Assembly (NCBI RefSeq): GCF_900188405.1 | Contig: NZ_FZOF01000015.1 | Location: forward strand, 1-64,000 | Length of the DNA: 64,000 bases | Origin: Actinacidiphila glaucinigra | GTDB taxonomy: Bacteria; Actinomycetota; Actinomycetes; Streptomycetales; Streptomycetaceae | Reading direction: 5' to 3' | In this document: positions 1,228 through 49,615 of the stretch, in pieces | Layout of the letters: every line of letters starts with the position of its first letter | Numbering within the stretch: the stretch's first letter is position 1 | Program-made: the position numbers and the translations under genes | The notes under the pieces: generated by a model | Databases searched by the model: none | Told to the model about the DNA's origin: nothing | What the model saw: only the letters and a program-made list of their open reading frames with translations

Positions 1228-1349
1228 GGATGTCCCCCTTCCGCCGGGACGCGGTGCCCCGTCGGCCGTCCATGATGGGCGAGGGGTGCCGGCGGACGGG
1301 TGGATTCAGCCCGGACCGGCCGGATCCGGTGCCCGACTACAGTGGGGCG

Positions 1350-1997
1350 GTGCGCTATGACCTGGTCATCTTCGACAACGACGGCGTGCTCGTGGACAGC
1401 GAGCCGCTCTCCAACCGCATTCTGGCGGGCCTGCTGACGGAGCTGGGCCACCCCACCACCTATGAGGAGTCCGTCCGGGACTACATGGGTGCGGCGATGC
1501 ACCGCGTCCACGACCTGGTGGCGGAGCGCACGGGCCGGCAGTTGCCCGCGGACTTCGACGCCACGTACTACGCGCGGGTCTTCGAAGGCTTCCGGCGTGA
1601 ACTGGAGCCGGTGCCCGGTGTGGTGACCGTGCTGGGGAAACTGGCGGCGGACGGTGTCCCGTACTGCGTCGCGTCCTCCGGCAGCCACGAGCGGATCCGG
1701 GTCGCGCTGAAGAAGACCGAGTTGTACGGGTACTTCGGCGAGGAGCGGATCTTCAGTTCGCAGGACGTGGGACGCGGGAAGCCGGCGCCCGACCTGTTCC
1801 TGCACGCGGCGCGCACGATGGGCGTGGCGCCGGAGCGGTGCGCCGTGGTGGAGGACAGCCCGCTCGGGGTGCGTGCCGCGGTGGCGGCCGGGATGGACGC
1901 CTACGCGTTCACGGCGATGACGCCCGCGGAGAAACTGGCGGGGGCGCGGGAGCTGTTCGGGGACATGGCGGAGCTGCCCGCGAAACTGTTCGTGTGA
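1350..1997 (+). CDS. HAD-family phosphatase (phosphoglucomutase-like)
   Basis: 215 residues from GTG 1350. The first motif, FDNDGVLVDSEPL, carries the nucleophile aspartate and general-acid aspartate of the haloacid dehalogenase superfamily. A helical cap with YMGAAMHRV follows, then motif II (CVASSGSH), a lysine in GRGKPAPD and motif III VVEDSPLGV. This is the beta-phosphoglucomutase/GPH-like subgroup, so the substrate is probably a phosphosugar. The start is chosen because the domain begins there and a -10 box TACAGT (1338-1343) lies 6 bases upstream, which suggests a leaderless mRNA. An in-frame extension back to 1230 has no family similarity. Confidence 0.88.
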   Translation: MRYDLVIFDNDGVLVDSEPLSNRILAGLLTELGHPTTYEESVRDYMGAAMHRVHDLVAERTGRQLPADFDATYYARVFEGFRRELEPVPGVVTVLGKLAADGVPYCVASSGSHERIRVALKKTELYGYFGEERIFSSQDVGRGKPAPDLFLHAARTMGVAPERCAVVEDSPLGVRAAVAAGMDAYAFTAMTPAEKLAGARELFGDMAELPAKLFV

Positions 1998-2040: not shown

Positions 2041-3270
2041 ATGGAGGGCTTCGGCGGCGGTTTGCGTCATGGACGGGCCTCGTTGGCCGTCGGTTTCTTC
2101 GCACAGGGGGCGGCCTTCGCGCTGCTGGTGACCCGGATCCCGGCGCTGCAGGACCGGTACGGCGTCAGTGACGCGCTGCTGCCGGCGTTCCTCGCCGCGG
2201 TGCCCGTGCTGGCGGGCGTGGGGAGTGTCGCCACCGAGCACCTGGTGAAGCGGGTGCGGCCGAGTGTGGTGCTGCGCTGGGTGCAACCGGTGGTGTGCCT
2301 GGCGCTGCTGGGCGCCGGTGCCGGGAACGCGCTGTGGCAACTTGCCGCGTCGCTGGCCGTGTTCGGGATATGCGTCGGCGCCCTGGACGCGTCCATGAAC
2401 ATGCTCGGGGTGAGCCTGCAGCGTGCGTACGGGCGCAGCATCATGCTGGGCTTCCACGCCGCGTACAGTCTCGGCGGCATCCTGGGGGCGTCGCTGGCCT
2501 GGGCGGGAGCGCACTGGCACCTGTCGCTGGCGGTGCTGTACGGGCCGGTGGTGGCGGTGCTGATCCCGCTGACGCTGGTCGCCAGCCGCTGGTACGTCGA
2601 CCGGAAGACGGAGGCACATGACGCCACGGCCACGGCCACGGCCGCCGCGGCTCCAGTGGCGATGCGGCTGCTGCTCCCGCTGTGCCTGGTGATGGCGTTC
2701 GCGTACATCGGCGACTCCACCGTCTCCAACTGGAGCGCGAAGTACCTGCAGGACGTGCTCGGCGGCTCCGAGCAGCTGGCCACCGTCCCGTACAACGTCT
2801 ACATGGTCACCACCCTGCTGGGCCGCTCGGTCGGCGACCTCGGTGTGCGGCGGTTCGGGGCGGCCGCGGTGGTGCGTACGGGCGCGCTGGTGGCGGCAGC
2901 GGGCTTCGCGGTGGTCGCGGCCGCGCCGGGCGCGTGGGTGGGGATGGCGGGTTTCACGCTGCTGGGTCTGGGGTTGTGCGTGATCGTGCCGCAGACGTTC
3001 GCGGCTGCCGGGCGGCTGTTCCCGGGGGCTTCGGACACGGCGATCGCGCGGCTGAACATCTTCAACTACGTGGGTTTCCTGGTCGGTTCCCCCCTGGTGG
3101 GGGCCCTGGGCGATGCCTGGAGCTACCGGGGGGCGATGCTTGTGCCGATGCTGCTGGTGGCGGCGACGCTGCTGTACGCCCGCTCGTTCGGGACGGAGCC
3201 CGCCCGATACGGTGTCGACCATGAGCGGCCGCGCACAGCTGATGTGGGACGAGCAGGTAACGGGCTATGA
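2041..3270 (+). CDS. MFS transporter
   Basis: 409 residues with about 12 hydrophobic segments, an integral membrane permease of the major facilitator superfamily. The loop after helix 2 (TEHLVKRVRPSVVLR) is a weak form of the family's basic loop. The central loop holds an alanine/threonine-rich stretch near residue 200. The MFS class fits, but nothing shows the substrate. A -10 box TACGCT (2027-2032) lies 8 bases before the ATG and there is no ribosome site, so the transcript is probably leaderless. Its last 50 bases overlap the start of the following acuC-like gene in another frame. Confidence 0.85.
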   Translation: MEGFGGGLRHGRASLAVGFFAQGAAFALLVTRIPALQDRYGVSDALLPAFLAAVPVLAGVGSVATEHLVKRVRPSVVLRWVQPVVCLALLGAGAGNALWQLAASLAVFGICVGALDASMNMLGVSLQRAYGRSIMLGFHAAYSLGGILGASLAWAGAHWHLSLAVLYGPVVAVLIPLTLVASRWYVDRKTEAHDATATATAAAAPVAMRLLLPLCLVMAFAYIGDSTVSNWSAKYLQDVLGGSEQLATVPYNVYMVTTLLGRSVGDLGVRRFGAAAVVRTGALVAAAGFAVVAAAPGAWVGMAGFTLLGLGLCVIVPQTFAAAGRLFPGASDTAIARLNIFNYVGFLVGSPLVGALGDAWSYRGAMLVPMLLVAATLLYARSFGTEPARYGVDHERPRTADVGRAGNGL

Positions 3271-4396
3271 CTTCGGTCGCGGCCACCCGATGGACCCGGT
3301 GCGGCTCGCACTGACCATGGGGCTGGTCCGGGCGCTCGGACTGGACCGGGCGCTCACCGTCACCGCGGCCCCCGTGGCCGGCGACTCGACACTGTGCCTG
3401 GTGCACGACGCGGAGTACGTGGCGGCGGTGCGCCGCGCCTCCGCCGACCCGAAGGCCATGACGGAACTGGCGTACGGCCTCGGCACCGAGGACACCCCGG
3501 CGTTCGCGGGCATGCACGAGGTCTCGGCGCTGATCGCGGGCCAGTCGGTGGGGGCGGCCGAGGCGGTGTGGCGCGGCGAGGTGACGCACGCGGTGAACTT
3601 CGCGGGCGGGCTGCACCACGCGATGCCGGGGATGGCCTCGGGTTTCTGCGTCTACAACGACGCCGCGCTGGCCGTCGCCCGGCTGCTGGAGCTGGGCGCG
3701 GAGCGCGTCGCGTACGTGGACGTGGACGTGCACCACGGGGACGGCGTCCAGACGGCCTTCTGGGACGATCCGCGCGTGCTGACGATCTCGCTGCACGAGC
3801 ACCCCCGCACGCTCTTCCCGCAGACCGGCTGGCCGGAGGAGACCGGCGGCCCGGCGGCGGAGGGCGGCGCGGTGAACGTGGCGCTGCCGGCCGGCACCGG
3901 GGACGAGGGCTGGCTGCGGGCGTTCGACGCGGTCGTCCCCGAGCTGCTCGCGGCCTTCCGGCCGCAGGCGCTGGTGACCCAGCACGGCGCGGACACGCAC
4001 TTCGAGGACCCGCTGGCGCACCTCGCGGTGAGCCTGGACGCGCAGCGGGCCGTGGCGGAGGCGCTGCACGGCCTGGCGCACGAGCACGCCGAGGGCCGGT
4101 GGGTCGCCCTGGGCGGGGGCGGATACGCGGTGGTGGACGTGGTGCCCCGGACGTGGGCGCACCTGGTGGGCATCGCCGCGGGGCAGCCGGTCGCGCCGGA
4201 GACGGCGACGCCCGAGGAGTGGCGGGCGGAGGTGTACCGCAGGACGCGCCAGATGGGGCCGTTGTGGATGACGGACGGCCGGGACGCGGCGTTCAGCGGT
4301 TTCCACGACGCGGGGTACGACCCGGCGGACCGGCTGGACCAGGCGATCCTGGCGACCCGGCGGGCGGTCTTCCCGCTGCACGGGCTGCTGCCCTAG
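3221..4396 (+). CDS. acuC: AcuC-type deacetylase (histone deacetylase fold)
   Basis: 391 residues. The arginase/deacetylase fold is clear: VHDAEYVAAV, GGLHHAMPGMASGFCVYND, then YVDVDVHHGDGVQ, which holds the zinc-binding aspartate and histidine, later QHGADTHFEDP and GGGGYAV. AcuC enzymes remove acetyl groups from lysines; in Bacillus AcuC acts on acetyl-CoA synthetase. Cytoplasmic. ATG 3221 is chosen because the family N-terminus (MWDEQVTGYDFGRGHPMDP) follows within 10 residues and a -10 box TACGGT (3208-3213) lies 7 bases upstream, inside the end of the MFS gene. Confidence 0.9.
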   Translation: MSGRAQLMWDEQVTGYDFGRGHPMDPVRLALTMGLVRALGLDRALTVTAAPVAGDSTLCLVHDAEYVAAVRRASADPKAMTELAYGLGTEDTPAFAGMHEVSALIAGQSVGAAEAVWRGEVTHAVNFAGGLHHAMPGMASGFCVYNDAALAVARLLELGAERVAYVDVDVHHGDGVQTAFWDDPRVLTISLHEHPRTLFPQTGWPEETGGPAAEGGAVNVALPAGTGDEGWLRAFDAVVPELLAAFRPQALVTQHGADTHFEDPLAHLAVSLDAQRAVAEALHGLAHEHAEGRWVALGGGGYAVVDVVPRTWAHLVGIAAGQPVAPETATPEEWRAEVYRRTRQMGPLWMTDGRDAAFSGFHDAGYDPADRLDQAILATRRAVFPLHGLLP

Positions 4397-4424
4397 GTAC
4401 GACCGGATCCCCACGGGAATGGGC

Positions 4425-5978
4425 TCAGGCGCCGGTGCGCAGCAGCTGCGCCGCGCGTTCCGCGATGGCGTAGACGGTGGCGTTCGTATTGGCGGAGACC
4501 GGGCCCGGCATCACGGACGCGTCGGCCACCCGCAGGCCGTCGACGCCGCGTACCCGCAGTTCGGGATCGACGACGGCGTAGGCGTCGGTGCCGATGCGGC
4601 AGGTGCCGGCGTAGTGGTTGTAGGAGCGCAGGTTGCGGCGCAGGTAGGCGCGCAGTTCGGTGGTGCCGGTGGTGTCCGGGCCGGGGAGGACCTCCTCGCC
4701 GTACCACTCGGCCAGGGCGGGGGCGGCGGCGAGCTCCCGGGCGGCGTCCAGGCCCCGCGCCATGGTGTCGAGGTCGCGGACGTCGGCGTAGTAGCGGGGG
4801 TCGATGAGCGGTGGCGCGCCGGGGGCGGTGCCGGAGAGCCGGACCGTTCCGTGGCCGTGCGGCGCCATCAGGGCGACCATGATCGTCCAGCCTTCGCCGA
4901 CGGCGGGCCCCGGCAGGCTCTCCTCGCGGATCGGGACGTCGGCGATGTGCAACTGAACGTCGGGGCCCGGCGCTTCGGGCCGGGTGCGGATCAGGCCCTG
5001 GACCTCGCCGTGGTTGTTGGCGCCGGGCGGAACGGGGCGGGCGGCCCGTACGACGACGCCGGAGAGGACGTGGTCCAGCAGGTGGGAGCCGACGCCCGGC
5101 AGGTGCACGGCGGTGGGGATGCCCCAGTGGCGCAGGTGGTTGCGGGGGCCGATGCCGGAGAGCATGAGCAGCTGCGGGGTGCCGACCGCGCCCGCGGCCA
5201 GGACGACCTGCCCGGAGGGGGAGCGGCGGGCCGTGCGCGGCTCGCCGTCGACGGCGTACTCCACGCCCGTGCAGCGGTCGCCGGCCAGGAGCACCCGGTG
5301 CGCGAGGGCTCCGGTGACCACGTGGAGGCCCGGCCGGCGTAGCGCCGGGCGCAGGTAGGCCGTGGCGGCGTCCTGGCGTACGCCGTCGGCGATGCTGAGG
5401 TCGCCCCAGCCGAACCCCTCCTCCAGGCCGCCGGTGAGGTCGCGCGCCTCGCGGTGGCCGGCCTCGACCGCGGCACGCAGGAAGGCCCGGGCGAGCGGGT
5501 GGCGGTCGGTGGCAGGGCCGACGCGCAGGGGGCCGTCCATGCCGCGCAGTTCCGGGTCGCGGTCCGGGACGCCGGTCAGGTCCTCGCTGCGGCGGAAGCA
5601 GGGCAGCAGGTCGTCCCAGCCCCAGCCGTCGGCGCCCTCGGCGGCCCAGGCGTCGTAGCCGGAGGGGTGGCCGCGCAGGAAGTTCATGGCGTTGACGGCC
5701 GAGCTGCCGCCCAGGCCGCGGCCGCGGGGCCACGGTACGACGAGGCCGGTCTCGGTCTGCGGTACGGTGCGGTCCGCCCAGTCGAGCCGGGTGCCGAGCA
5801 GGCTCGGCCAGGCCGCGGGGACGGAGACCTGCGGGGGGCGGTCGGCTCCGCCGGCCTCGAGGAGCAGCACACGGGCCGCGTCGTCCTCGCAGAGGCGGGC
5901 CGCGAGCACGCATCCCGCGGATCCCGCCCCCACCACGATGTAGTCGAACTCGTCCGCGCCCGCGGAGGTGTCGGCCAC
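4425..5978 (-). CDS. GMC-family FAD oxidoreductase
   Basis: 517 residues from GTG 5978 behind GGGAGGG. The N-terminal FAD-binding motif VVGAGSAGCVLAARL is followed by the glutamate of LLLEAGG. GMC signature 1 is seen in GGSSAVNAMNFLRGH and signature 2 in GAVGTPQLLMLSGIGP. The C-terminal block YNHYAGTCRIG carries the catalytic histidine region, and NTNATVYAIAERAAQLL closes the FAD domain. It is closest to choline dehydrogenase-like alcohol oxidoreductases, but the substrate cannot be read. It stands alone and converges on acuC. Confidence 0.9.
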   Translation of the reverse strand: MADTSAGADEFDYIVVGAGSAGCVLAARLCEDDAARVLLLEAGGADRPPQVSVPAAWPSLLGTRLDWADRTVPQTETGLVVPWPRGRGLGGSSAVNAMNFLRGHPSGYDAWAAEGADGWGWDDLLPCFRRSEDLTGVPDRDPELRGMDGPLRVGPATDRHPLARAFLRAAVEAGHREARDLTGGLEEGFGWGDLSIADGVRQDAATAYLRPALRRPGLHVVTGALAHRVLLAGDRCTGVEYAVDGEPRTARRSPSGQVVLAAGAVGTPQLLMLSGIGPRNHLRHWGIPTAVHLPGVGSHLLDHVLSGVVVRAARPVPPGANNHGEVQGLIRTRPEAPGPDVQLHIADVPIREESLPGPAVGEGWTIMVALMAPHGHGTVRLSGTAPGAPPLIDPRYYADVRDLDTMARGLDAARELAAAPALAEWYGEEVLPGPDTTGTTELRAYLRRNLRSYNHYAGTCRIGTDAYAVVDPELRVRGVDGLRVADASVMPGPVSANTNATVYAIAERAAQLLRTGA

Positions 5979-6123
5979 GGGAGACCCTCCCGTCGCTGTC
6001 GCGCTCTATGCCTGAATTGTACGGAGGGCTCCGCCGGGGGCGCCGACCCGAACAACCGCCCCTCGGGAGTGATGTTCGGGCCGTTCCGGCACGTGAGGGG
6101 GCGGTGAGGGCCACCATCGGCAC

Positions 6124-6939
6124 GTGGTGACACTTGCCGCGCTGCGGGCGCATCTGGTGGGGGCGGGGATCGCGGGGGTCGTGGCGACACCGCGGGAGAA
6201 GAGCCTGCGCAGCTATCGGCTGTTCGTGGCGGGCGATCCGCGGCAGACCCTGGGGCTGGAGCCGGCGCGGTCCTGGACGCAGTCCGGTCTTCTGCGGTTG
6301 ATGGCCGACCGATGTGGGGTTTCGCCTGACCCGGGGCACACTTCCGGGCAGGATGTGATCGACCCGGACCGCACGCTGGCGGGGCTCGAGGCCTTCGCCG
6401 TCCGGTTGAAGGAGGCCGCGCAGCGCAGGGAGCCCGTACTCATCGGTACTGGTCACCCGCATCGCCTGCTCGGATTCTACGCCGGATTGGCGGCCGCCCT
6501 GTCGGCGGCGGGATGCCCCGTCCTCACCCCATCGCATGGCCGATGTATCGACATGGCGACGCAATTCGGCCTACGCACGTACAACCTCTGGTACGTAGGG
6601 GGAGTCGCGACGGTCCGTGATGCGCCGGGTGAGGGCGCCCGTGGTGCGCCGGCGGTACACACACACTCCCCGCTCCCGGTTCGGGCCGCGCTGGCCGGTG
6701 CGGCAGGACGCGGGGGGCTGCTGCCGAGCCTCGTGGTGGGAGACCACGGCTGGGTCTGCGGAGCAGGTCAGCTGGGCATCGAGGCCATCGGACTGGCCGA
6801 TTCGGACGACCCGGCGGTTTTCGTGGCCGAGACGGAGGGCAGGGTCTCGGCCGTGGTTCCGCTTGATGACGCTGTGCGGTCCGATTACTACCGACCGCTT
6901 ACGCGCTATGTACTCAATCGAGCGTGTCTGTCACAGTAG
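6124..6939 (+). CDS. Conserved protein of unknown function
   Basis: 271 residues from GTG 6124 (GTG 6127 is also possible). I do not recognise a family with certainty. Visible blocks are PREKSLRSYRLFVAGDP near the start, LIGTGHPHRLLGFYAGLAAAL in the middle, and VVGDHGWVCGAGQLGIEAIG near the end, followed by an acidic stretch. These glycine/histidine turns look like an active site, and related Streptomyces proteins are sometimes called phosphatases; I treat that as unproven. There is no signal peptide or membrane segment. It lies upstream of the small HTH gene at 7068. Confidence 0.7.
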   Translation: MVTLAALRAHLVGAGIAGVVATPREKSLRSYRLFVAGDPRQTLGLEPARSWTQSGLLRLMADRCGVSPDPGHTSGQDVIDPDRTLAGLEAFAVRLKEAAQRREPVLIGTGHPHRLLGFYAGLAAALSAAGCPVLTPSHGRCIDMATQFGLRTYNLWYVGGVATVRDAPGEGARGAPAVHTHSPLPVRAALAGAAGRGGLLPSLVVGDHGWVCGAGQLGIEAIGLADSDDPAVFVAETEGRVSAVVPLDDAVRSDYYRPLTRYVLNRACLSQ

Positions 6940-7067
6940 TCAACCGATCGCTACTCCTCTTCCCCACTTGCATCATGCGCACCTAATCTGGGGAGGAGCG
7001 CACGTGCGAGAGGGAGTCACCGGAGGGGAAGCCGGTGCCCGTCATGTGCGGAAGGTTCAGGTGTGTC

Positions 7068-7280
7068 ATGGCTTCAAGCGAGAGGCCTCTCAACGAGGTC
7101 GTGTTCCTGACCGTGGCAGAGGTCGCCGCGGTGATGCGAGTGTCCAAGATGACCGTGTACCGGCTGGTGCACAGCGGTCATCTGCCGGCGATCCGGGTGG
7201 GGAGGTCCTTCCGGGTGCCGGAGCAGGCCGTCCATGACTATCTTCGGGAGTCCTACGTGGGGGTGGGGGAAACTGCCTGA
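7068..7280 (+). CDS. bdtA: Excisionase/MerR-like HTH protein (BdtA-like)
   Basis: 70 residues, nearly all one winged-helix DNA-binding domain: [20 protein letters not shown], then [23 protein letters not shown]. The second half forms the wing. It has no effector domain and resembles the small excisionase/BldC-type regulators. In S. coelicolor a gene in this position, two genes from the bldN neighbourhood, was named bdtA as a target of the developmental repressor BldD; the name here rests on family and position. ATG 7068 is used because the domain begins soon after. A GGAAGG lies 12 bases upstream, which is further than usual. Confidence 0.75.
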
Positions 7281-7387
7281 CGACCGCCTCGGTTTCTGCT
7301 CGGCGCTTGCGGACGGGTAGGCTGAGCCGACGTAGGTCGTGTGGGCTCGGACGCCCCGCACCGAGTGAAAACGAAGCGAGGGTAGTC

Positions 7388-7486
7388 GTGGGCTCTGTCA
7401 TCAAGAAGCGGCGCAAGCGTATGGCCAAGAAGAAGCACCGCAAGCTGCTGAAGCGTACGCGTGTGCAGCGTCGCAACAAGAAGTAA
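7388..7486 (+). CDS. bS22-like ribosomal protein (AURKAIP1/COX24 domain)
   Basis: Only 32 residues: it starts [19 protein letters not shown] and ends [13 protein letters not shown]. Almost half the residues are Lys or Arg. It matches the AURKAIP1/COX24 family, which in mycobacteria is the extra small-subunit protein bS22 bound to 16S rRNA near the decoding centre. GTG 7388 is preceded by GCGAGGG at 5-base spacing. A 21-bp hairpin follows 20 bases after the stop, so it is a single-gene unit or the end of the bdtA transcript. Easily missed because of its length. Confidence 0.88.
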
Positions 7487-7506
7487 GCGAGCTACGCGTC
7501 GCACCT

Positions 7507-7551
7507 CGCTGCCCTCCCGCCCCCACGGACCGTGGGGGCGGGAGGGCAGCG
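7507..7551 (+). terminator. Strong hairpin terminator
   Basis: Perfect 21-bp inverted repeat (7507-7527 with 7531-7551) with a 3-base loop and no T-run, as is usual for Streptomyces. It follows the bS22-like gene. Confidence 0.85.
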
Positions 7552-7667
7552 GCGTTCCCGGGGCCGCCGGGCGGGCTCCTCGACGGTGCTCGTACGTTCG
7601 GGCGTCATCACGGCGCAACAACGAACCGATACGGTGCGTACATGCGGTGCGAGGGAAGGCGCTGATC

Positions 7668-8720
7668 TTGGGCAAAGTGGTGCTGGTGACCGGAGTCGCC
7701 CGCCAGCTCGGCGGCCGGCTGGTACGACGTGTGATGCGCGACCCCGACGTCGACCGGGTGATCGCGGTCGACACGATGCCGCCCACACACCAACTGGGCG
7801 GTGCCGAGTTCGTCCGTGCCGACATCAGGCACCCGATGATCGCGAAGGTGCTGGCGGAGCACTCGGTGGACACGGTGGTCCACATGGACGTCAGCGGCAC
7901 GCTGCCCGGTCGCAGCAGCCGGACCGCGGTCAAGGAGACCAACGTCATCGGCACGATGCAGCTGCTCGGCGCCTGCCAGAAGGCCCCGACGGTGCGCCGC
8001 CTGGTGGTGAAGTCCACCACGAGCGTGTACGGCTCCGCCCCCCGCGATCCCGCGGTCTTCACCGAGTCCATGCCGCCCAAGTCGCTGCCCAGCGGCGGCT
8101 TCGCCAAGGACGCGGTCGAAGTCGAGGGCTATGTGCGCGGCTTCGCACGGCGCCGTCCGGATGTTGCCGTATCGGTTCTGCGGTTCGCCAACATCCTGGG
8201 CCCGCGGGCCGACACGCCCCTCGCCGAGTACTTCGCGCTGCCGGTGCTGCCGACCGTGTTCGGCTACGACCCGCGGCTGCAGTTCGTCCACGAGGACGAC
8301 GTCGTCGACGTCCTCATGCTGGCCCTGCGCGACGAGCGCAACGGGACGATCAACAGCGGCACGTTCAACATCGCCGGTGACGGGGTGCTCCTGCTGTCGC
8401 AGACCGCGCGACGGCTGGGGAAGCCCACGGTGCCGGTGCTGCTGCCCGCGGTGACGTGGGTGGGGCAGATGCTGCGCACCGCCGGCGTCACCGACTTCTC
8501 GCGGGAGCAGATCCGGTTGCTCACCCACGGCAGGGTCGTGGACACCACGCAGATGCGCGAGACGCTCGGCTTCGCCCCGAAGTACACCACCGCCGAGACC
8601 TTCAGCGACTTCGCCCGCAGTCGCGGCCCCGGCCTGTTGCCGCCCGATCGGCTCGCGGAGGCCGTCGACCGGCTCGCCGCCCTGGTCCCCGCGGGCGGCC
8701 CCCGAGGACTGAGCTCGTGA
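7668..8720 (+). CDS. NAD-dependent epimerase/dehydratase family protein
   Basis: 350 residues, extended short-chain dehydrogenase fold. It begins GKVVLVTGVARQLGGRLVRR, a Rossmann glycine motif variant (GxxRxxG), followed by the acidic end of strand 2 (VIAVD). Later blocks are VVHMDVSG, KSTTSVYGSAPRD and FVHEDDVVDVLMLAL. The usual YxxxK pair is not obvious after the KSTTSVYG serine block (F-A-K-D-A instead), so catalysis is doubtful. TTG 7668 is chosen because GAGGGAAGG (7651-7659) lies 8 bases upstream; GTG 7647 is an in-frame alternative. It overlaps nothing and is followed directly by the acyltransferase. Confidence 0.82.
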   Translation: MGKVVLVTGVARQLGGRLVRRVMRDPDVDRVIAVDTMPPTHQLGGAEFVRADIRHPMIAKVLAEHSVDTVVHMDVSGTLPGRSSRTAVKETNVIGTMQLLGACQKAPTVRRLVVKSTTSVYGSAPRDPAVFTESMPPKSLPSGGFAKDAVEVEGYVRGFARRRPDVAVSVLRFANILGPRADTPLAEYFALPVLPTVFGYDPRLQFVHEDDVVDVLMLALRDERNGTINSGTFNIAGDGVLLLSQTARRLGKPTVPVLLPAVTWVGQMLRTAGVTDFSREQIRLLTHGRVVDTTQMRETLGFAPKYTTAETFSDFARSRGPGLLPPDRLAEAVDRLAALVPAGGPRGLSS

Positions 8721-8746
8721 GCACTGCTGCGAGGAGGAACCGCACC

Positions 8747-9955
8747 ATGGCGGACGCCAAGGTCATCCCGTTCGACGAGGACACGCGGACGCGGAGGGGG
8801 GCGCCGCGCTCGCGCGGGCGGGCCGCGGCCCGCGGCAAGGCGGGCGGCGACGCCGGGAACGCGGTGGCCGCGCTGCCGGTCGAGGAGCGGGCCACGCGGT
8901 CCGCGGCCGCGGACGAGGCCGACGCCGTCGAAGGCGCCGTGACGGCCTCCGCGGACACCCCCGGCACCGGTGGTGCGGATGGGGCGTCCGAGGGCGCACA
9001 GACCGCTCCGGAGGGCGCTGAGGGGCATCCCGGCGGCACCCCGGGCGGTACTCCGGGTAGTCCGGGCGGCCCGCTGGCGGCGGCGCTCGGCTCGGCCGCG
9101 GACCGGCTGCTGGGGAAACCCTGGGAGCGCCGGGTGGCGCACGGCCTGGCCTTCCTGCGCCGCCGGATCACCGGCGACTACGAGGTCGACGACTTCGGCT
9201 ACGACGAGGAGCTCACCGACCAGGTCCTGATGTCGCTGCTCCGGCCGCTGTACGAGTCGTACTTCCGGGTCGAGGTGAAGGGCATCGAGAACATCCCGGC
9301 CGAGGGCGGCGCCCTGGTGGTGGCCAACCACTCCGGGACACTGCCGATGGACGGCCTGATGATGCAGGTCGCCGTCCACGACCACCACCCCGCGGGGCGG
9401 CACCTGCGACTGCTGGCGGCGGATCTGGTGTTCATGCTGCCGCTCGTCAACGAGCTGGCCCGCAAGGCCGGGCACACCCTCGCCTGCGCGGAGGACGCCC
9501 AGCTGCTGCTGGAACGCGGTGAGGTCGTCGGTGTGATGCCCGAGGGCTTCAAGGGGCTGGGGAAGCCCTTCTCCGAGCGCTACAAGCTGCAGCGCTTCGG
9601 GCGGGGCGGTTTCGTCGCGACCGCGCTCAAGACCGGGGTGCCGATCGTGCCGTGCTCCATCGTGGGCGCGGAGGAGATCTACCCGATGATCGGCAACGCG
9701 AAGACGGTGGCCCGGCTGCTGGGCTTCCCGTACGTCCCGGTGACGCCGACGTTCCCGTGGCTCGGGCCGCTGGGTATGGTGCCGCTGCCGACGAAGTGGA
9801 CGATCCAGTTCGGCGAGCCGATCCCCACGGACGGCTACGCGCCGGAGGCGGCCGAGGACCCGATGCTGGTCTTCAATCTGACCGACCAGGTGCGGGAGAC
9901 CATCCAGCACACCCTCTACAAGCTGCTGGTGCAGCGCCGCTCTGTCTTCTTCTAG
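8747..9955 (+). CDS. PlsC-type lysophospholipid acyltransferase
   Basis: 402 residues. The first 115 or so are low-complexity, rich in Ala, Gly, Glu and Arg, and probably disordered. The catalytic domain follows: NHSGTLPMDG is the NHX4D acyltransferase motif, and VMPEGFKGLGKPFSERY carries the second (EGT-like) motif. Members acylate lysophosphatidic acid or related lipids at the membrane. ATG 8747 has GAGGAGGAA 7 bases upstream; an in-frame GTG at 8717 overlaps the stop of the epimerase gene and would add 10 residues. The two genes are clearly co-transcribed. Confidence 0.87.
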   Translation: MADAKVIPFDEDTRTRRGAPRSRGRAAARGKAGGDAGNAVAALPVEERATRSAAADEADAVEGAVTASADTPGTGGADGASEGAQTAPEGAEGHPGGTPGGTPGSPGGPLAAALGSAADRLLGKPWERRVAHGLAFLRRRITGDYEVDDFGYDEELTDQVLMSLLRPLYESYFRVEVKGIENIPAEGGALVVANHSGTLPMDGLMMQVAVHDHHPAGRHLRLLAADLVFMLPLVNELARKAGHTLACAEDAQLLLERGEVVGVMPEGFKGLGKPFSERYKLQRFGRGGFVATALKTGVPIVPCSIVGAEEIYPMIGNAKTVARLLGFPYVPVTPTFPWLGPLGMVPLPTKWTIQFGEPIPTDGYAPEAAEDPMLVFNLTDQVRETIQHTLYKLLVQRRSVFF

Positions 9956-10007
9956 AGCCTCGGCCTCCGGCCTCCGGGGCTGCCGCCGGCTCGCGGGGGC
10001 CGGAACC

Positions 10008-10044
10008 CATGGTGGGCCGGGGCGTGACGCCCCGGCCCACCATG
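10008..10044. terminator. Bidirectional hairpin terminator
   Basis: Perfect 17-bp stem (10008-10024 with 10028-10044) and 3-base loop between the stop codons of two convergent genes, the acyltransferase and rsbN. Confidence 0.85.
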
Positions 10045-10055
10045 TGAGGTCCCGC

Positions 10056-11249
10056 TCAGTCGTCCCTGTCGTCCTCGGCGCTCAGCCCGAGGCCCGGGAG
10101 CAGTCCGGGCAGCAGCGGCGGGAGGGTGACCGACGGCTGGGTGCCGTCGCCGCCCGGGGAGCTGCCCCCGCTCGGCGGGGGGTCGAGCAGATCGCCCGTG
10201 CCGCCGATGAGGCCGCTGTCCGCGCTGCGGGACGCCGACGGGCTGGCCTTGTCGCCGCCGCGCTCGTCGGCCGAGCCGCTCGCGGAGCCGCTGACCGAGG
10301 GCGAGGGCCCCCGGGTGCCGCTCGCGGAGCGGTTTCCGCCGCCCGGGACACCGCGGCCGTCACTGTGGCCGGCGCCGGTGTCGGGCGGCAACAGCTTCTG
10401 CAGCGGCGCCACTTCGTCCTCTATGGCGTCGAAGACGGAGGTGACCTTGTTCCCCACGTCGTCGAGCCGGGAGGGCAGCCGGCCGCGCAGCTCCGTCCAG
10501 CCCCTGCGGTGGTTGCTGGAGAACGCGGAGAGCGTCTCGATCGGCCGCAGCGAACCGTCCTTGCGGTACGCGGCGGCGAGCAGCCGATGGCCCTCGGAGG
10601 CCTCCTGCTGCATCCCGGACAGCGCCTTGCGGATCTCGCCCACGGACTCGTCGTCGAGATCACCGCCCCGGCCGCGTTCCATGAGGCGGCGGGCCTCCTG
10701 GAGCCGGGTGGAGGCGAGGTCGAGATAGACCTTGCCACGGTCGGCGTCGTCGTCGGCGAGGTTGAGGCGCATGTCCTCCATGCCCCGTTTGAGGCCGTAG
10801 AGGGTGTCGCCGGGCAGCGCATCGGTGCTCGCGGCGGCGACGCCGCCGAGGGCACCGGCCGCCACGCCCACGGAGAGGCCGCCGGCGGCGAGCCTGCGCG
10901 ACCACGCCGAGCGCGGCTTCAGTTTGCCGAGACCGCGGCCGCCGGCGCGGTGTGCGCCCCGTCCGCCGTCGCGCTGTACGGGAACCGTCAGGGTGCCGTC
11001 GGCGAGCGCCGCCTCCATGGCGGCGATCAACTGGGCACGCTGGACGGTCTTGGTCTCCGGGTCCAGCATCGGCCGCGGCACGTCCTGCAGGGCGTCCGCC
11101 AGGGCCAGGAACGTGCCCTGGTCCGGATCCGCATGCCGGTCCGCGGCGTGGGCGCCGTGCTGTACGCCGGCGCCCGTCTGGGGGCCTTCGCCCTCGAGGG
11201 CGTCGGCGAAGGCGTTGGCCCGCCGGTGCGCCGTTGGATTCGCGATCAC
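10056..11249 (-). CDS. rsbN: RsbN, membrane anti-sigma factor for BldN
   Basis: 397 residues, DUF5667-type. The N-terminal cytoplasmic part starts VIANPTAHRRANAFADALEG, then VQRAQLIAAMEAALADG. A membrane segment rich in Gly and Ala follows (RLAAGGLSVGVAAGALGG, about residues 140-157). The long extracellular part ends in a Ser/Gly/Pro-rich tail. In Streptomyces RsbN binds and silences the sigma factor BldN; the family and the adjacent bldN support the same job here. GTG 11249 is preferred over GTG 11258 because AGGAGG (11258-11263 complement) lies 8 bases from it and would overlap the earlier codon. Confidence 0.9.
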   Translation of the reverse strand: MIANPTAHRRANAFADALEGEGPQTGAGVQHGAHAADRHADPDQGTFLALADALQDVPRPMLDPETKTVQRAQLIAAMEAALADGTLTVPVQRDGGRGAHRAGGRGLGKLKPRSAWSRRLAAGGLSVGVAAGALGGVAAASTDALPGDTLYGLKRGMEDMRLNLADDDADRGKVYLDLASTRLQEARRLMERGRGGDLDDESVGEIRKALSGMQQEASEGHRLLAAAYRKDGSLRPIETLSAFSSNHRRGWTELRGRLPSRLDDVGNKVTSVFDAIEDEVAPLQKLLPPDTGAGHSDGRGVPGGGNRSASGTRGPSPSVSGSASGSADERGGDKASPSASRSADSGLIGGTGDLLDPPPSGGSSPGGDGTQPSVTLPPLLPGLLPGLGLSAEDDRDD

Positions 11250-43957: not shown

Positions 43958-44059
43958 ATGCGTCCGTCCCTGGCTGTGAGTGACCGGAACAAGGTGCCCG
44001 GCACGTCCGCCGCCGCGCCACCGACCCCCGGCTCGCCCGAGCCGGGGAGCACCGTATGA
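43958..44059 (+). CDS. 33-residue small ORF coupled to the synthetase
   Basis: Starts MRPSLAVSDRNKVPGTSAA and ends in a Pro/Ser/Gly stretch. GGAGGG (43946-43951) sits 6 bases before ATG, one of the best ribosome sites in the window. The stop overlaps the synthetase ATG by 4 bases (ATGA). It could be a translational leader, or a small protein partner. No signal peptide or cysteine. Unrecognised. Confidence 0.55.
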   Translation: MRPSLAVSDRNKVPGTSAAAPPTPGSPEPGSTV

Positions 44060-47000
44060 CGCTCGTCGAGTCGCCCCTCCCGCTCCTGGAGGACCCCGCG
44101 CCCACTGGTGCCACCGGCGTCACCTGCGCCCCGGGTACCGCGCTCTTCCGGGCCGGCGCCGCAGCGCCCGAGCGCACCCTGCTCGGCATCCTGGCCGCCA
44201 CCGCCCGGGCGCACCCCACCGCACCCGCCGTCGACGACGGCACCACGACGCTGAGCTACCGCGCCCTCGCCGCGGCGACCGAGCGCCTGCGCCACCGCCT
44301 GGCGGAGGCCGGCATCGGCGCCGGCGACCGGGTCGGCGTACGGGTGCCCTCGGGCACCGCCGACCTGTACGTGGCGATCCTCGCCGTGCTCTCCGCGGGC
44401 GCCGCCTATGTGCCGGTCGACGCCGAGGACCCCGAGGAACGCGCCCGGCTGGTCTTCTCCGAGGCACAGGTGTGCGCCGTCATCGGCGAGCACCTCGCGA
44501 TCACCCCGTGCGCCGTGCCCGGCGGCAGCGCCGGCCGCCGTCCCGGGCCGGACGACGACGCGTGGATCATCTTCACCTCCGGCTCCACGGGCAAGCCGAA
44601 GGGCGTCGCCGTCACCCACCGTTCGGCGGCCGCGTTCGTCGACGCCGAGGCGCGGCTCTTCCTCGCCGACGAGCCGCTCGGACCCGGCGACCGGGTGCTG
44701 GCCGGGCTGTCGGTGGCGTTCGACGCCTCCTGCGAGGAGATGTGGCTGGCGTGGCGGCACGGCGCCTGCCTGGTGCCCGCGCCGCGCTCGCTGGTGCGCA
44801 CCGGCCTGGACCTCGGCCCGTGGCTGGTCGAGCAGGGCATCACCGTCGTCTCCACCGTGCCCACCCTGGCCGCGCTGTGGCCCGTCGAGGCGCTGGACGA
44901 CGTCCGTCTGCTGATCTTCGGCGGCGAGGCCTGCCCGCCCGAACTGGCCGAGCGGATGGCCGTCGAGGGCCGCGAGGTGTGGAACACCTACGGTCCGACC
45001 GAGGCCACCGTCGTCGCCTGCGCCGCCCAGCTCACCGGCGAGGGCCCGGTCCGCATCGGGCTGCCCCTGGACGGCTGGGAGCTGGCCGTGGTGGACGCCC
45101 ACGGCGCACCGCTGCCCATGGGCGCCACCGGCGAGCTGGTCATCGGCGGGGTGGGCCTCGCCCGCTACCTGGACCCCGCCAAGGACGCCGAGAAGTACGC
45201 CCCGCTGCCCGCCCTCGGCTGGGACCGCGCCTACCGCAGCGGCGACCTGGTCCGCGCGGACGCGGCGGGCCTGGTCTTCGTCGGCCGCGCCGACGAGCAG
45301 GTCAAGCTCGGCGGCCGCCGCATCGAACTGGGCGAGATCGACGCCGCGCTGCAGGCACTGCCCGCCGTCGCCGGCGCGGCAGCCGCCGTACGCACCACCA
45401 AGGGCGGCAACCAGATCCTGGTCGGCTACGTCGCGGTGACCGAGGACTTCGACCAGGCCGACGCGCTCGCCAGGCTCCGCGAGGCGCTGCCCGCCGCCCT
45501 CGTGCCGCTGGTCGCCGTCGTCGGCACCCTGCCGACCAGGACCTCGGGCAAGGTCGACCGGGACGCGCTGCCCTGGCCGCTGCCCGGGCTCGAGACGCCC
45601 GCCGTGGAACTCGCCGGCACCGAGGGACTGCTCGCGGGGCTGTGGGCGGAGCTCCTCGGCGCTCCGGTGACCGGGCCCGAGGCCGACTTCTTCGCGCTCG
45701 GCGGCGGCAGCCTGACGGCCGCCCGCCTCGTCTCCCAGCTGCGCACCCGCTACCCCGCGGCCGCCGTGGGCGACGTCTACCAGCACCCCACCCTCGGGGC
45801 GCTCGCCGCACGCCTGGACGAGGCCGACGCCCGCCGCGCCGCCGCGCGCCCGGTGCGGCCGGTGCCCCGGCGGGCCGCGGCGGTCCAGCTGGCGCTGATG
45901 CCGCCGCTATTCGTCCTGGCCGGACTGCGCTGGGGCGTCGTGGCGGCGGCCATCGGCAACGTGCTGCTCCTCCTCGGCCCCTTCCCGTGGGTCCCGGCCG
46001 TCTCCTGGTGGTGGGTGCTGGCCGGCTGGGCGCTGCTTGTCAGCCCCGCCGGACGGGTCGCCGTCTCGGCCGGCGGCGCCCGGCTGCTGCTGCGCGGGGT
46101 ACGCCCCGGCACCTATCCGCGCGGCGGGTCGGTGCACCTGCGCCTGTGGGCCGCGGAACGCCTGGCGCACGTCAGCGGCGCGGGCAACCTCACCGGCGCG
46201 TGGCTGAGCCACTACGCCCGCGCGCTGGGCGCCAAGGTCGGCGACGGCGCCGACCTGCACGCGCCGCCGCCGGTCACCGGCATGCTCAAGCTCGGCAAGG
46301 GCAGCGCGGTCGAGCCCGAGGTCGACCTGTCCGGCCACTGGCTCGACGGCGACCTGCTGCACATCGGCAAGATCCGCGTCGGGGCGGGCGCCACGGTCGG
46401 CTCGCGCAGCACCCTGCTGCCCGGCGCCCGGATCGGCAAGCGCGCCGAGATCGCCCCCGGCTCCGGCGTCGTGGGCGCCGTGCGGGCCGGGCAGCGCTGG
46501 GGCGGCGTGCCCGCCGTCCGCACCGGCAAGGCCCCGCACCGCGGCGCCGACTCCCGGCCGCCGCGGCGGCTGCGCTGGGCGGCGGCGTACGAGGCGACCG
46601 CCTTCGCCCTCGACCTGCTGCCCGCGGTGTCGGCGCTGCCCGCCCTGCTGGTGCTGGCCCGCTTCCTGCGCGACGCCGGCGCCGCGCCGCTGTCCGCCGC
46701 GCTCACCGCCGTCCCCCTGGCCACGCTCGCCTGGCTGCTGACGTACGCGCTGCTGGTGCTGGCCGGGGTGCGGCTGCTGGGCGTCGGGCTGCGCGAGGGC
46801 CACCACCCCGTGCACGGCCGCGTCGCCTGGCAGGCCTGGACGACGGCCCGGCTCATGGACCGGGCCCGCGCGCATCTGTTCCCGTTCTACGCCAGCCTGC
46901 TGACGCCGGTGTGGCTGCGCGCGCTCGGCATGAAGGTCGGCCGCCACGTGGAGGCGTCCACCGTGCTGGCGCTGCCCACGATGACCACCGTCGGCGACGG

Positions 47001-47967
47001 GGCCTTCCTCGCCGACGACACCATGGTCGGCAGCTACGAACTCGGCGGCGGCCGGATGCGCATCGCCGAGGCCCGGATCGGCAAGAAGGCCTTCCTCGGC
47101 AACTCCGGGATGACCGCCCCCGGCCGCTCGGTGCCGAAGAACGGCCTGGTCGGCGTGCTCTCGTCGACGCCCAAGGGCGCCAAGGCCGGCAGCTCCTACC
47201 TCGGCATGCCGCCGATGAAGCTGCCCCGGGTCCCCGAGGAGGGCGACCGCAGCCGCACCTTCGCGCCGCCCCGGCGGCTCGTGCTGGCCCGCGCGGCCGT
47301 CGAGCTGTGCCGGGTCGTCCCCGTGATGTGCGCGGTCGCGCTGGTGGTGCTGGTGCTCGCCGGGTACGCGGCGGTGGCCGGCCGGTACGGGGTGCCCGTG
47401 GCGCTCGCCGCCGGCGGGGCGCTGCTCGCGGGCGCCGGTGCGGCCGCCTGCGCGGTGGCCGTCGTGATGAAGTGGCTGCTGGTCGGGCGGGTGCGGGCGG
47501 GCGAACGGCCGCTGTGGAGCTCGTTCGTGTGGCGCAACGAACTGGCCGACACCTTCGTCGAGGTGCTGGCCGTGCCGTGGCTCGTCGGCGCGGTCGGCGG
47601 CACCCCGCTGATGAACCTGTGGCTGAGGTGCCTGGGGGCGCGGATCGGGCGCGGCGTATGGTGCGAGACGTACTGGCTGCCGGAGGCGGACCTGGTCCGG
47701 GTCGGGGACGGCGCTACCGTCGGCCGCGGCTGCGTGGTACAGACACACCTGTTCCACGATCGGATCTTGCGGATGGACGAGGTCGTACTCGGGGAGGGCG
47801 CGAGCCTTGGCCCGCACGGCATCGTGCTGCCCGGCGCGACGGTCGGGGCCCGGAGCGCGATCGGCCCGGCCTCGCTCGTCATGCGGGGCGAGGGCGTGCC
47901 CGAGGGCACCCGCTGGCTCGGCAACCCGATCTCCGCCTGGCACACAGAGGGGGCCCGCACAGGGTGA
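44056..47967 (+). CDS. Pls/PosA-family single-module NRPS
   Basis: 1303 residues, closest in layout to epsilon-poly-lysine synthetase. An adenylation domain (about 30-510: IIFTSGSTGKPKGVAV, NTYGPTEATVV, YRSGDLVRAD, GRIRR-like GGRRIELGEID, TSGKVDRDALP) is followed by a carrier domain with S552 in LGGGSLTAARL. There is no condensation or thioesterase domain. The rest has about six membrane segments around three left-handed-helix-like repeat domains, the last ending RWLGNPISAWH. The specificity residues read D-A-E-S-I-G-T-V-V-K by hand alignment, near the Lys code. GGGGAG lies 6 bases before ATG. Confidence 0.92.
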   Translation: MTLVESPLPLLEDPAPTGATGVTCAPGTALFRAGAAAPERTLLGILAATARAHPTAPAVDDGTTTLSYRALAAATERLRHRLAEAGIGAGDRVGVRVPSGTADLYVAILAVLSAGAAYVPVDAEDPEERARLVFSEAQVCAVIGEHLAITPCAVPGGSAGRRPGPDDDAWIIFTSGSTGKPKGVAVTHRSAAAFVDAEARLFLADEPLGPGDRVLAGLSVAFDASCEEMWLAWRHGACLVPAPRSLVRTGLDLGPWLVEQGITVVSTVPTLAALWPVEALDDVRLLIFGGEACPPELAERMAVEGREVWNTYGPTEATVVACAAQLTGEGPVRIGLPLDGWELAVVDAHGAPLPMGATGELVIGGVGLARYLDPAKDAEKYAPLPALGWDRAYRSGDLVRADAAGLVFVGRADEQVKLGGRRIELGEIDAALQALPAVAGAAAAVRTTKGGNQILVGYVAVTEDFDQADALARLREALPAALVPLVAVVGTLPTRTSGKVDRDALPWPLPGLETPAVELAGTEGLLAGLWAELLGAPVTGPEADFFALGGGSLTAARLVSQLRTRYPAAAVGDVYQHPTLGALAARLDEADARRAAARPVRPVPRRAAAVQLALMPPLFVLAGLRWGVVAAAIGNVLLLLGPFPWVPAVSWWWVLAGWALLVSPAGRVAVSAGGARLLLRGVRPGTYPRGGSVHLRLWAAERLAHVSGAGNLTGAWLSHYARALGAKVGDGADLHAPPPVTGMLKLGKGSAVEPEVDLSGHWLDGDLLHIGKIRVGAGATVGSRSTLLPGARIGKRAEIAPGSGVVGAVRAGQRWGGVPAVRTGKAPHRGADSRPPRRLRWAAAYEATAFALDLLPAVSALPALLVLARFLRDAGAAPLSAALTAVPLATLAWLLTYALLVLAGVRLLGVGLREGHHPVHGRVAWQAWTTARLMDRARAHLFPFYASLLTPVWLRALGMKVGRHVEASTVLALPTMTTVGDGAFLADDTMVGSYELGGGRMRIAEARIGKKAFLGNSGMTAPGRSVPKNGLVGVLSSTPKGAKAGSSYLGMPPMKLPRVPEEGDRSRTFAPPRRLVLARAAVELCRVVPVMCAVALVVLVLAGYAAVAGRYGVPVALAAGGALLAGAGAAACAVAVVMKWLLVGRVRAGERPLWSSFVWRNELADTFVEVLAVPWLVGAVGGTPLMNLWLRCLGARIGRGVWCETYWLPEADLVRVGDGATVGRGCVVQTHLFHDRILRMDEVVLGEGASLGPHGIVLPGATVGARSAIGPASLVMRGEGVPEGTRWLGNPISAWHTEGARTG

Positions 47968-49328
47968 GCAACGGCAAGCGCGTGCGTGGCGGGGCCGCCG
48001 TCCCCGCCACGCCCGGGGCGGAGGTGTCCGCGGACTCCTACTTCCCCGAGCACGGCAACGGCGGCTACCGGGTCACCCACTACGACCTGGAACTGGATTA
48101 CCGCCCGGCGGCCAACCGCCTCTCGGGCCGGGCCCGGATCTCCGCGGTGGCGGACCGGGCCCTCTCCGCGTTCAGCCTCGACCTGGGCGCCTTCCGCCTC
48201 GACCGGGTCCTCGTCGACGGCCGCCCCGTCCGCTACACCCACCGGGCGGGCAAGCTCCGCGTGAAGCCCGCGAAGGCGCTGCCCGCGGGCCCGTTCGCGG
48301 TGGAGGTCCGCTATGTCGGCAACCCGAGGCCCGTCCGCTCCCGCGACTGGGGGGAACTGGGCTGGGAGCAGCTGGAGGACGGCGCGCTCGTGGCCAGCCA
48401 GCCGATCGGCGCGCCCTCCTGGTTCCCCTGCAACGACCACCTCGGCGACCGGGCGGGCTACCGGATCACGGTGACCGCCCCCTCGCCGTACACGGTCGTC
48501 GCCAACGGCAGCCTGGAGTCGTACCGGGTGGGCGCCTCCACGACGACCTGGGTGTACGACCAGCCGAAGCCGATGCCGCCGTACCTGGCGACCGTGCAGA
48601 TCGGCCAGTACGAGCTGATCGACCACCTCGGCGGCCCGCTGCCCCAGCCGGCCGCCGTACCGCCGCGCCTGACCGCCGACTTCGCCCACGACTTCGGACG
48701 GCAGCCGCGGATGGTGGAGGCGTTCACCGAGTTCTTCGGGCCCTACCCCTTCGGCGAGTACGCGGTCGTCGTGGTCGACGAGGAACTGGAGGTGCCCGTC
48801 GAGGCGCACGGGGTCTCCGTCTTCGGCCGCAACCACCTCGACGGCCGCCGCGGCGGCGAACGCCTCGTCGCCCACGAACTCGCCCACCAGTGGTTCGGCA
48901 ACAGCCTCGCCCTCGCCGACTGGCGGCACATCTGGCTCAACGAGGGCTTCGCCGCGTACGCGGAGTGGCTGTGGGCGGAGTCCTGCGGCGAGATGACCGC
49001 GGCCCGCAACGCGGCCCGCGCCCACGCAAAGCTGGCCGCCCAGCCCCAGGACCTGCGGCTCGCCGACCCCGGCGTCCGGCGCATGTTCGACGACCGGGTG
49101 TACAAGCGCGGCGCGCTCACTCTGCACGCGCTGCGCACGGTCATGGGCGATCCGGCGTTCTTCCGGCTGCTGCGGGCCTGGACCGCCGCCCACCGCCATG
49201 GCACCGTGACCACCGGGCAGTTCACCGCCCTGGCCCAGGAGCACACCGACCGGCCGCTGGAGGCGCTGGTCTTCCATCCGTGGCTGCACGGGACGCGGCT
49301 GCCACGTCTGCCGATCGGGGGAGCATGA
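47964..49328 (+). CDS. M1-family zinc metallopeptidase
   Basis: 454 residues. GTG 47964 overlaps the synthetase stop (GTGA). The zinc site is HELAHQWFGN with Glu 18 residues later (WLNEGFAAYAEWLW), the M1 gluzincin pattern. The N-terminal beta domain has the usual YDLELDYRPAANRLSGRARI. The exopeptidase GxMEN motif is replaced by VEAHGVSVFG, so aminopeptidase activity may differ. Epsilon-poly-lysine producers have an M1-type degrading enzyme; here it is the direct neighbour, so polymer trimming or self-protection is plausible. No signal peptide. Confidence 0.92.
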   Translation: MSNGKRVRGGAAVPATPGAEVSADSYFPEHGNGGYRVTHYDLELDYRPAANRLSGRARISAVADRALSAFSLDLGAFRLDRVLVDGRPVRYTHRAGKLRVKPAKALPAGPFAVEVRYVGNPRPVRSRDWGELGWEQLEDGALVASQPIGAPSWFPCNDHLGDRAGYRITVTAPSPYTVVANGSLESYRVGASTTTWVYDQPKPMPPYLATVQIGQYELIDHLGGPLPQPAAVPPRLTADFAHDFGRQPRMVEAFTEFFGPYPFGEYAVVVVDEELEVPVEAHGVSVFGRNHLDGRRGGERLVAHELAHQWFGNSLALADWRHIWLNEGFAAYAEWLWAESCGEMTAARNAARAHAKLAAQPQDLRLADPGVRRMFDDRVYKRGALTLHALRTVMGDPAFFRLLRAWTAAHRHGTVTTGQFTALAQEHTDRPLEALVFHPWLHGTRLPRLPIGGA

Positions 49329-49615
49329 GCGACGCGCACACGGACGAGGGCGGCGTCGTCGTCTACTGGCGGCCCGGCTGCACCTTCTGCATGAAGCTGC
49401 GCGCACAGCTGCGGTTCGCCCGGCTGCGGCACACCAAGGTCAACATCTGGCGCGATCCGGACGCCGCCGCCTTCGTGCGCTCCGTGGCGGACGGGAACGA
49501 GACCGTCCCGACCGTCACCGTGGCGGGGCGGCCCATGGTCAACCCGTCGCTGCGGCAGCTGAGGGAGGCGGTCAGGGCGTACGCCCCGCACCTTCAGCCG
49601 AAGCGCGACACATAG
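49325..49615 (+). CDS. Mycoredoxin-like glutaredoxin
   Basis: 96 residues, overlapping the M1 gene by 4 bases (ATGA). VVVYWRPGCTFCMKLRAQL has the C-T-F-C redox pair, NETVPTVTVAGRPMVNPS the cis-proline and the glutathione/mycothiol-binding edge. Mycoredoxins reduce mycothiol-mixed disulfides in actinobacteria. It ends the four-gene run and overlaps the end of the convergent phosphatase gene by 22 bases. Why it is joined to the synthetase is unknown. Confidence 0.9.
   Translation: MSDAHTDEGGVVVYWRPGCTFCMKLRAQLRFARLRHTKVNIWRDPDAAAFVRSVADGNETVPTVTVAGRPMVNPSLRQLREAVRAYAPHLQPKRDT

Follow-up and report, generated by a model that had tools for sequence, protein, structure and literature searches.

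What does a run of four overlapping genes in the actinomycete Actinacidiphila glaucinigra produce, and do the peptidase and redox genes it contains belong to the same undertaking? The genes occupy positions 43958-49615 of the window, the 64,000-nucleotide stretch of contig NZ_FZOF01000015.1 (positions 1 to 64,000) analysed here. An earlier note, made from the letters of this DNA, described them as a Pls/PosA-type poly-amino-acid operon with its own M1 peptidase and a mycoredoxin. The operon is very probably a unit of the pls-pldII kind for the antimicrobial polymer epsilon-poly-L-lysine (epsilon-PL), in which Pls would make the polymer, an M1 enzyme would cut it, a short leader would couple translation and a redox gene would be an addition.

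As the note had it, the four open reading frames (ORFs) run head to tail (Table 1), and their three junctions, ATGA, GTGA and ATGA, are each a 4-base overlap. All three overlaps are kept at locus L045 of G025, the nearest other genome, whose synthetase is 95% identical. Between the two genomes, the ratio of non-synonymous to synonymous substitution rates (dN/dS) is 0.173 for pls, 0.211 for the M1 gene and 0.224 for the redox gene; for the leader ORF, which has no frameshift in G025, it is 0.223, calculated from eight changes, of which 5 are synonymous and 3 non-synonymous. The leader and the redox gene are therefore under purifying selection along with the two larger genes. With the overlaps kept and dN/dS low for all four ORFs, chance cannot account for the series of open frames. 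A search for plasmid-borne relatives gave 18 records, none of which reaches 80% query coverage at a single site.

Table 1. The four ORFs of the operon (A, adenylation domain; T, carrier domain; TM, transmembrane part; C1-C2-C3, membrane-linked C-terminal domains)
Feature	Position	Strand	Basis and remarks
Leader ORF, 33 codons	43958..44059	+	Starts MRPSLAVSDRNKVPG...; stop overlaps pls start by 4 bases; no family match
Pls, predicted epsilon-poly-L-lysine synthetase, A-T-(TM/C1-C2-C3), 1303 aa, ATG start	44056..47967	+	TIGR02353, 7wew A domain, pocket, tree
Short two-domain M1 zinc metallopeptidase, PldII-like, 454 aa, GTG start	47964..49328	+	PF01433, PF17900, HELAH and downstream Glu, position after pls
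Mycoredoxin-like glutaredoxin with CTFC, 96 aa, ATG start	49325..49615	+	PF00462, TIGR02200 below cut-off, 2lqo

The synthetase and its predicted substrate

The synthetase had been described as a single module with adenylation (A) and carrier domains and neither a condensation nor a thioesterase domain, and profile searches bear this out. The A domain scores 340.5 bits against TIGR01733 (cut-off 317.4) and the carrier domain 46.5 bits against PF00550 (cut-off 20.8), while the Pls/PosA terminal domain TIGR02353 is matched at 755 bits (cut-off 423.1) over profile positions 2-695 of 695; a Pfam scan returned no condensation or thioesterase domain. Between the soluble parts lie hydrophobic stretches at about residues 612-649, 847-872, 877-913, 1075-1113 and 1112-1146. 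By hydropathy, which gives no count of helices, they fit the membrane segments described for Pls, where six transmembrane helices separate three soluble domains. The hydropathy threshold is not specific, since two stretches of the A domain (101-123 and 474-492) pass it as well.

Judged by its sequence, the synthetase is assigned to Pls, a more specific class than Pls/PosA. Its top match in the PDB is the epsilon-poly-L-lysine synthase 7wew at 682 bits, with the next match at 407 bits, and the two A domains are 69.2% identical over 487 residues. The ten-residue pocket DAESIGTVVK, read at positions that we take from GrsA numbering, is identical in the two enzymes and occurs in 104 of the 112 A domains aligned. 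The other eight comprise three near variants (L060, L064 and L066), the distant L072 (DFEYVGTVTK) and four non-Pls A domains from the same genome as the window; two of these own-genome controls (OWN_L001 and OWN_L006) are poorly delimited, and their pocket codes are not interpretable. A tree of 50 of the 112 aligned rows places 47 Pls rows together, including the window and 7wew, the S. albulus enzyme, and leaves L072 and two nonribosomal peptide synthetase (NRPS) A domains of the own genome outside (support 100/99). The phylogenetic check proposed in the note thus comes out on the side of Pls, among rows that do not include PosA or the synthetases of poly-diaminopropionate (PDAP) and poly-diaminobutyrate (PDAB). 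A PDB search with the A domain of the distant L072 lists PosA (8g95) among its matches. Together with TIGR02353, the identity to 7wew and the shared pocket support the reading of a Pls-type operon.

The chemistry of Pls and PldII has been worked out in S. albulus and other organisms and would apply here by analogy. Pls would adenylate L-lysine and then load it onto the carrier domain, and the membrane-linked C-terminal domains would build a cationic polymer by linking lysines at the epsilon-amino group, so that the strain would be expected to make epsilon-PL. A different product is very unlikely, even though several cationic homopolymers (poly-ornithine, poly-diaminobutyrate, poly-diaminopropionate and poly-beta-lysine), any of which the M1 enzyme might trim, are made by enzymes of the same architecture. 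A-domain codes can mislead, as in a poly-diaminopropionate synthetase that was predicted to use beta-lysine (PMC4668381). The window synthetase, however, has the same pocket as the L-lysine enzyme and an A domain 69% identical to it. PosA, the delta-poly-L-ornithine synthetase of Acinetobacter baumannii, belongs to the same family of homopolymer synthetases but differs in substrate, and its A core is reported to share 36% identity with that of epsilon-PL synthetase (PMC10522769); the word peptidase is absent from the text of that paper. Moreover, a peptidase-linked context is reported for pls, and the gene contexts of the other three poly-amino-acid synthetases are unlike it (PMC8117764).

The M1 peptidase and its pairing with Pls

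The peptidase matches PF01433 at 97.6 bits and PF17900 at 35.6 bits, and its HELAH motif is followed by the downstream Glu. What looked special in the earlier note, a peptidase of the operon's own, is the rule: all 80 named loci, which range from Streptomyces to Nocardia, Rhodococcus and Actinoplanes, have an M1 gene directly after Pls, and a coupling peculiar to the window was rejected. At least 590 relatives exist, of which these loci are the best 80 and hence the closer ones; 79 lie within the distance cut applied to the M1 gene, and L120 stands at -52 by alignment ends. Where the Pls-M1 junction can be read (99 loci), a start with a 4-base overlap is possible in 29, another overlapping start in 45 and none in 25.

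Translation of pldII in S. albulus is coupled to that of pls, and PldII is called the major degrading enzyme; when pldII was repressed, epsilon-PL was longer and tolerance lower (PMC9223678). The proposal that the peptidase trims the product or protects the cell is therefore one already published for PldII, and the same activity may be expected of the window enzyme. As the counterpart of PldII, the coupled M1 would act on epsilon-PL, limiting chain length and protecting the producer. The two operons are alike in the single-module synthetase, the lysine pocket and the coupled peptidase gene directly downstream (PMC9223678). PldII itself is likened to the window enzyme by gene position, description and length (454 aa here, a 1404-bp ORF there). 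The operon differs from that of S. albulus in its third coupled gene, the mycoredoxin-like one; its coupled 33-codon leader may be a second difference. A synthetase and a peptidase likewise share one operon in Corynebacterium variabile, a distant taxon for which the available part of PMC8117764 mentions no redox gene. Streptomyces coelicolor M145, according to that paper, lacks a pls of its own.

Several observations weigh against the reading as an epsilon-PL unit. Among 28 loci of the same genus, an M1 gene directly follows Pls in 19, is lacking in seven (L056-L060, L069 and the distant L072) and is cut off by a contig end in two. Five of the loci lacking it have the same pocket (L056-L059 and L069) and L060 has one change in it, with no M1 match in the stretches examined; nor did Pfam scans of four L056 ORFs and two L059 ORFs reveal an M1 domain. 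The synthetases of two such loci, L059 (71.6%) and L057 (71.4%), are slightly closer to the A domain of 7wew than is that of the window (69.2%). An M1 gene therefore need not accompany a Pls with the lysine pocket, general as the pairing is. In addition, a pocket code predicts a substrate and is no proof of it, culture of C. variabile gave no detectable polymer (PMC8117764), and no part of the window M1 passes the hydropathy threshold, whereas the description of PldII puts it outside the membrane (PMC9223678).

Further comparisons concern the M1 enzymes themselves. The closest solved relatives of the window enzyme are the short M1 zinc metalloproteases 6a8z (181 bits) and 6iff (178 bits), with which it aligns over nearly its full length. 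HEXXH is present in 98 of the 99 M1s found in 108 Pls loci. P-[VIL]-E-A likewise occurs in 98 of the 99, at the place expected for GXMEN, the motif of M1 aminopeptidases; in the 99th row the pattern has probably caught a wrong site. In 6a8z an Arg stands opposite the Glu of the P-V-E-A of the window enzyme in the alignment. P-[VIL]-E-A may be a mark of specificity for an isopeptide polymer. A second short M1, 35% identical to that of the window and not beside a pls, is encoded elsewhere in the same genome (C64:87457-88761, L077) and may correspond to the PLD-type enzyme reported from S. albulus. At L056, two CAP-domain genes, one of them with a sigma-70 region 2, follow Pls.

The leader ORF and the redox gene

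The 33-codon ORF looks, from its sequence features, like a translated leader: a Shine-Dalgarno motif (GGAGG) lies seven bases upstream of its ATG. Family scans returned no match. When 106 loci were searched for an upstream ORF with a Shine-Dalgarno motif and a 4-base overlap with the pls start, some such ORF was found in 22. Half of these are alike, beginning with ATG and an Arg codon and running for 17-33 codons (L045-L048, L061-L064, L067, L084 and L090; 11 rows from 10 genomes, L048 and L084 being from the same one). The other 11 rows, of 4-48 codons, are mutually unlike and resemble background among the remaining 95 loci. One fork of the A-domain tree, weakly supported (82/93), consists of precisely the window and ten of the Met-Arg rows, 11 in all; L090 is not in the tree. 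What is conserved in these leaders is their presence and their start, and hardly their sequence. By a second, narrower search that missed most of the Met-Arg leaders, pls stands directly behind its own Shine-Dalgarno motif in 27 of 76 rows. Separately, short ORFs beginning MRPRAARCC... (L112) and MRSRAARCR... (L117) lie behind a Shine-Dalgarno motif just upstream of pls in two Pseudonocardia loci.

Translation of the leader would pass ribosomes on to pls, and the synthetase, peptidase and redox protein would then be made in step. Expression of pls reportedly depends on its original promoter (PMC8117764), for which a coupled leader may be one explanation. Literature searches, judged by titles, returned no work on pls for leader peptides with poly-L-lysine and Streptomyces, and only PMC9223678, on pls-pldII, for translational coupling with the same terms.

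The redox protein scores 41.8 bits against PF00462 and 40.5 bits against Rv3198.1 (PDB 2lqo). It resembles mycoredoxin-type glutaredoxins such as the latter in length and in its motifs, CTFC (CxxC) and ETVPTVTV (TVPT), and differs from them in reaching 79.3 bits against the mycoredoxin model TIGR02200, under the curated cut-off of 89.5. Given that score, mycoredoxin-like is the right term, and the label used in the note was apt. The gene is no general part of the pls unit, a possibility that was rejected: it lies beside pls in none of the 80 named loci and in one of the 28 same-genus loci, that of G025. A homologue is present in 52 of 160 genomes of the family (E up to 1e-16) and, among the matches listed and compared by eye, is beside the M1 gene in only two, the window and G025. 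Homologues up to 82% identical sit elsewhere, and ten such neighbourhoods have little in common. Beyond the gene itself, the only shared ORFs, in a partial picture given that ORFs were filtered by codon-position GC, link L196 with L197 and L199 with L200, and two are found in L198 and L199. Titles found for mycoredoxin with poly-L-lysine concern Rhodococcus equi and Corynebacterium glutamicum, not this operon.

On the simplest reading, the redox gene is an accessory that was placed in the operon once and has been kept under purifying selection. It is probably a passenger under the transcription of the operon, with any role lying in general mycothiol redox repair. In favour of this are its restriction to one lineage, the scant sharing of neighbours elsewhere and the presence in this genome of two further matches of the mycoredoxin-like kind, at 57% and 42% identity; against it stands the precise 4-base coupling with the peptidase gene, which G025 keeps. 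That coupling, the conserved CxxC and the purifying selection would instead suit a functional third partner, one that holds thiols in Pls or the peptidase in the reduced state, or shields the cell from oxidative damage linked to the polymer. A third partner is nevertheless doubtful, as the gene is missing from all 80 named pls-M1 loci and stands beside the M1 gene in so few family genomes. Furthermore, its homologues in ten other genomes share so few neighbours that the position of the gene may be neutral. An unlikely reading makes the operon a four-part unit: the leader would gate translation of pls, which would account for the reported failure of pls when its promoter region is replaced, and a mycoredoxin recruited to the operon would shield synthetase or cell while the polymer is made. 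On the epsilon-PL reading preferred here, the mycoredoxin-like gene would have joined the operon recently in this lineage and be carried along by it, its probable task being general mycothiol-dependent redox repair.

Related proteins in the genome and meaning of the operon

The genome encodes three more TIGR02353 proteins. At L073 (C31:59000-74000), an ORF at 7495-10389 on the minus strand encodes a protein that matches TIGR02353 at 756 bits and has a carrier domain of its own but no A domain. It overlaps by 8 bases the next ORF (4209-7502, minus strand), an NRPS with a partial condensation domain, an A domain, a carrier and a thioesterase. Further on lie an ornithine cyclodeaminase-family gene (2111-3181, minus strand) and a gene for a pyridoxal phosphate-dependent protein (784-1959, minus strand), kinds reported to make 2,3-diaminopropionate (PMC4668381). 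From its sequence, L073 is possibly a split Pls-type system for a product containing diaminopropionate. The other two proteins, each a carrier with TIGR02353, are at L074 (7402-10365, minus strand, C48) and L075 (4853-7735, plus strand, C64). A tblastn search with the window A domain found no A domain in the 15-kb stretches around them; their neighbours include a rifampin-monooxygenase-like gene and a ClpB-like gene.

The core of the operon is already known, and the reading of its synthetase and peptidase is already in print; the lineage-specific redox gene and the coupled leader are modest extras. That Pls and the peptidase form a near-constant pair in the relatives examined lends support to the idea that production of epsilon-poly-lysine includes an enzyme dedicated to degrading it. 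The mycoredoxin-like gene adds one small, lineage-specific element to that operon, and the coupled leader ORF, found in the clade to which the window belongs, gives a testable explanation for the reported failure of pls to work except behind its own promoter region.

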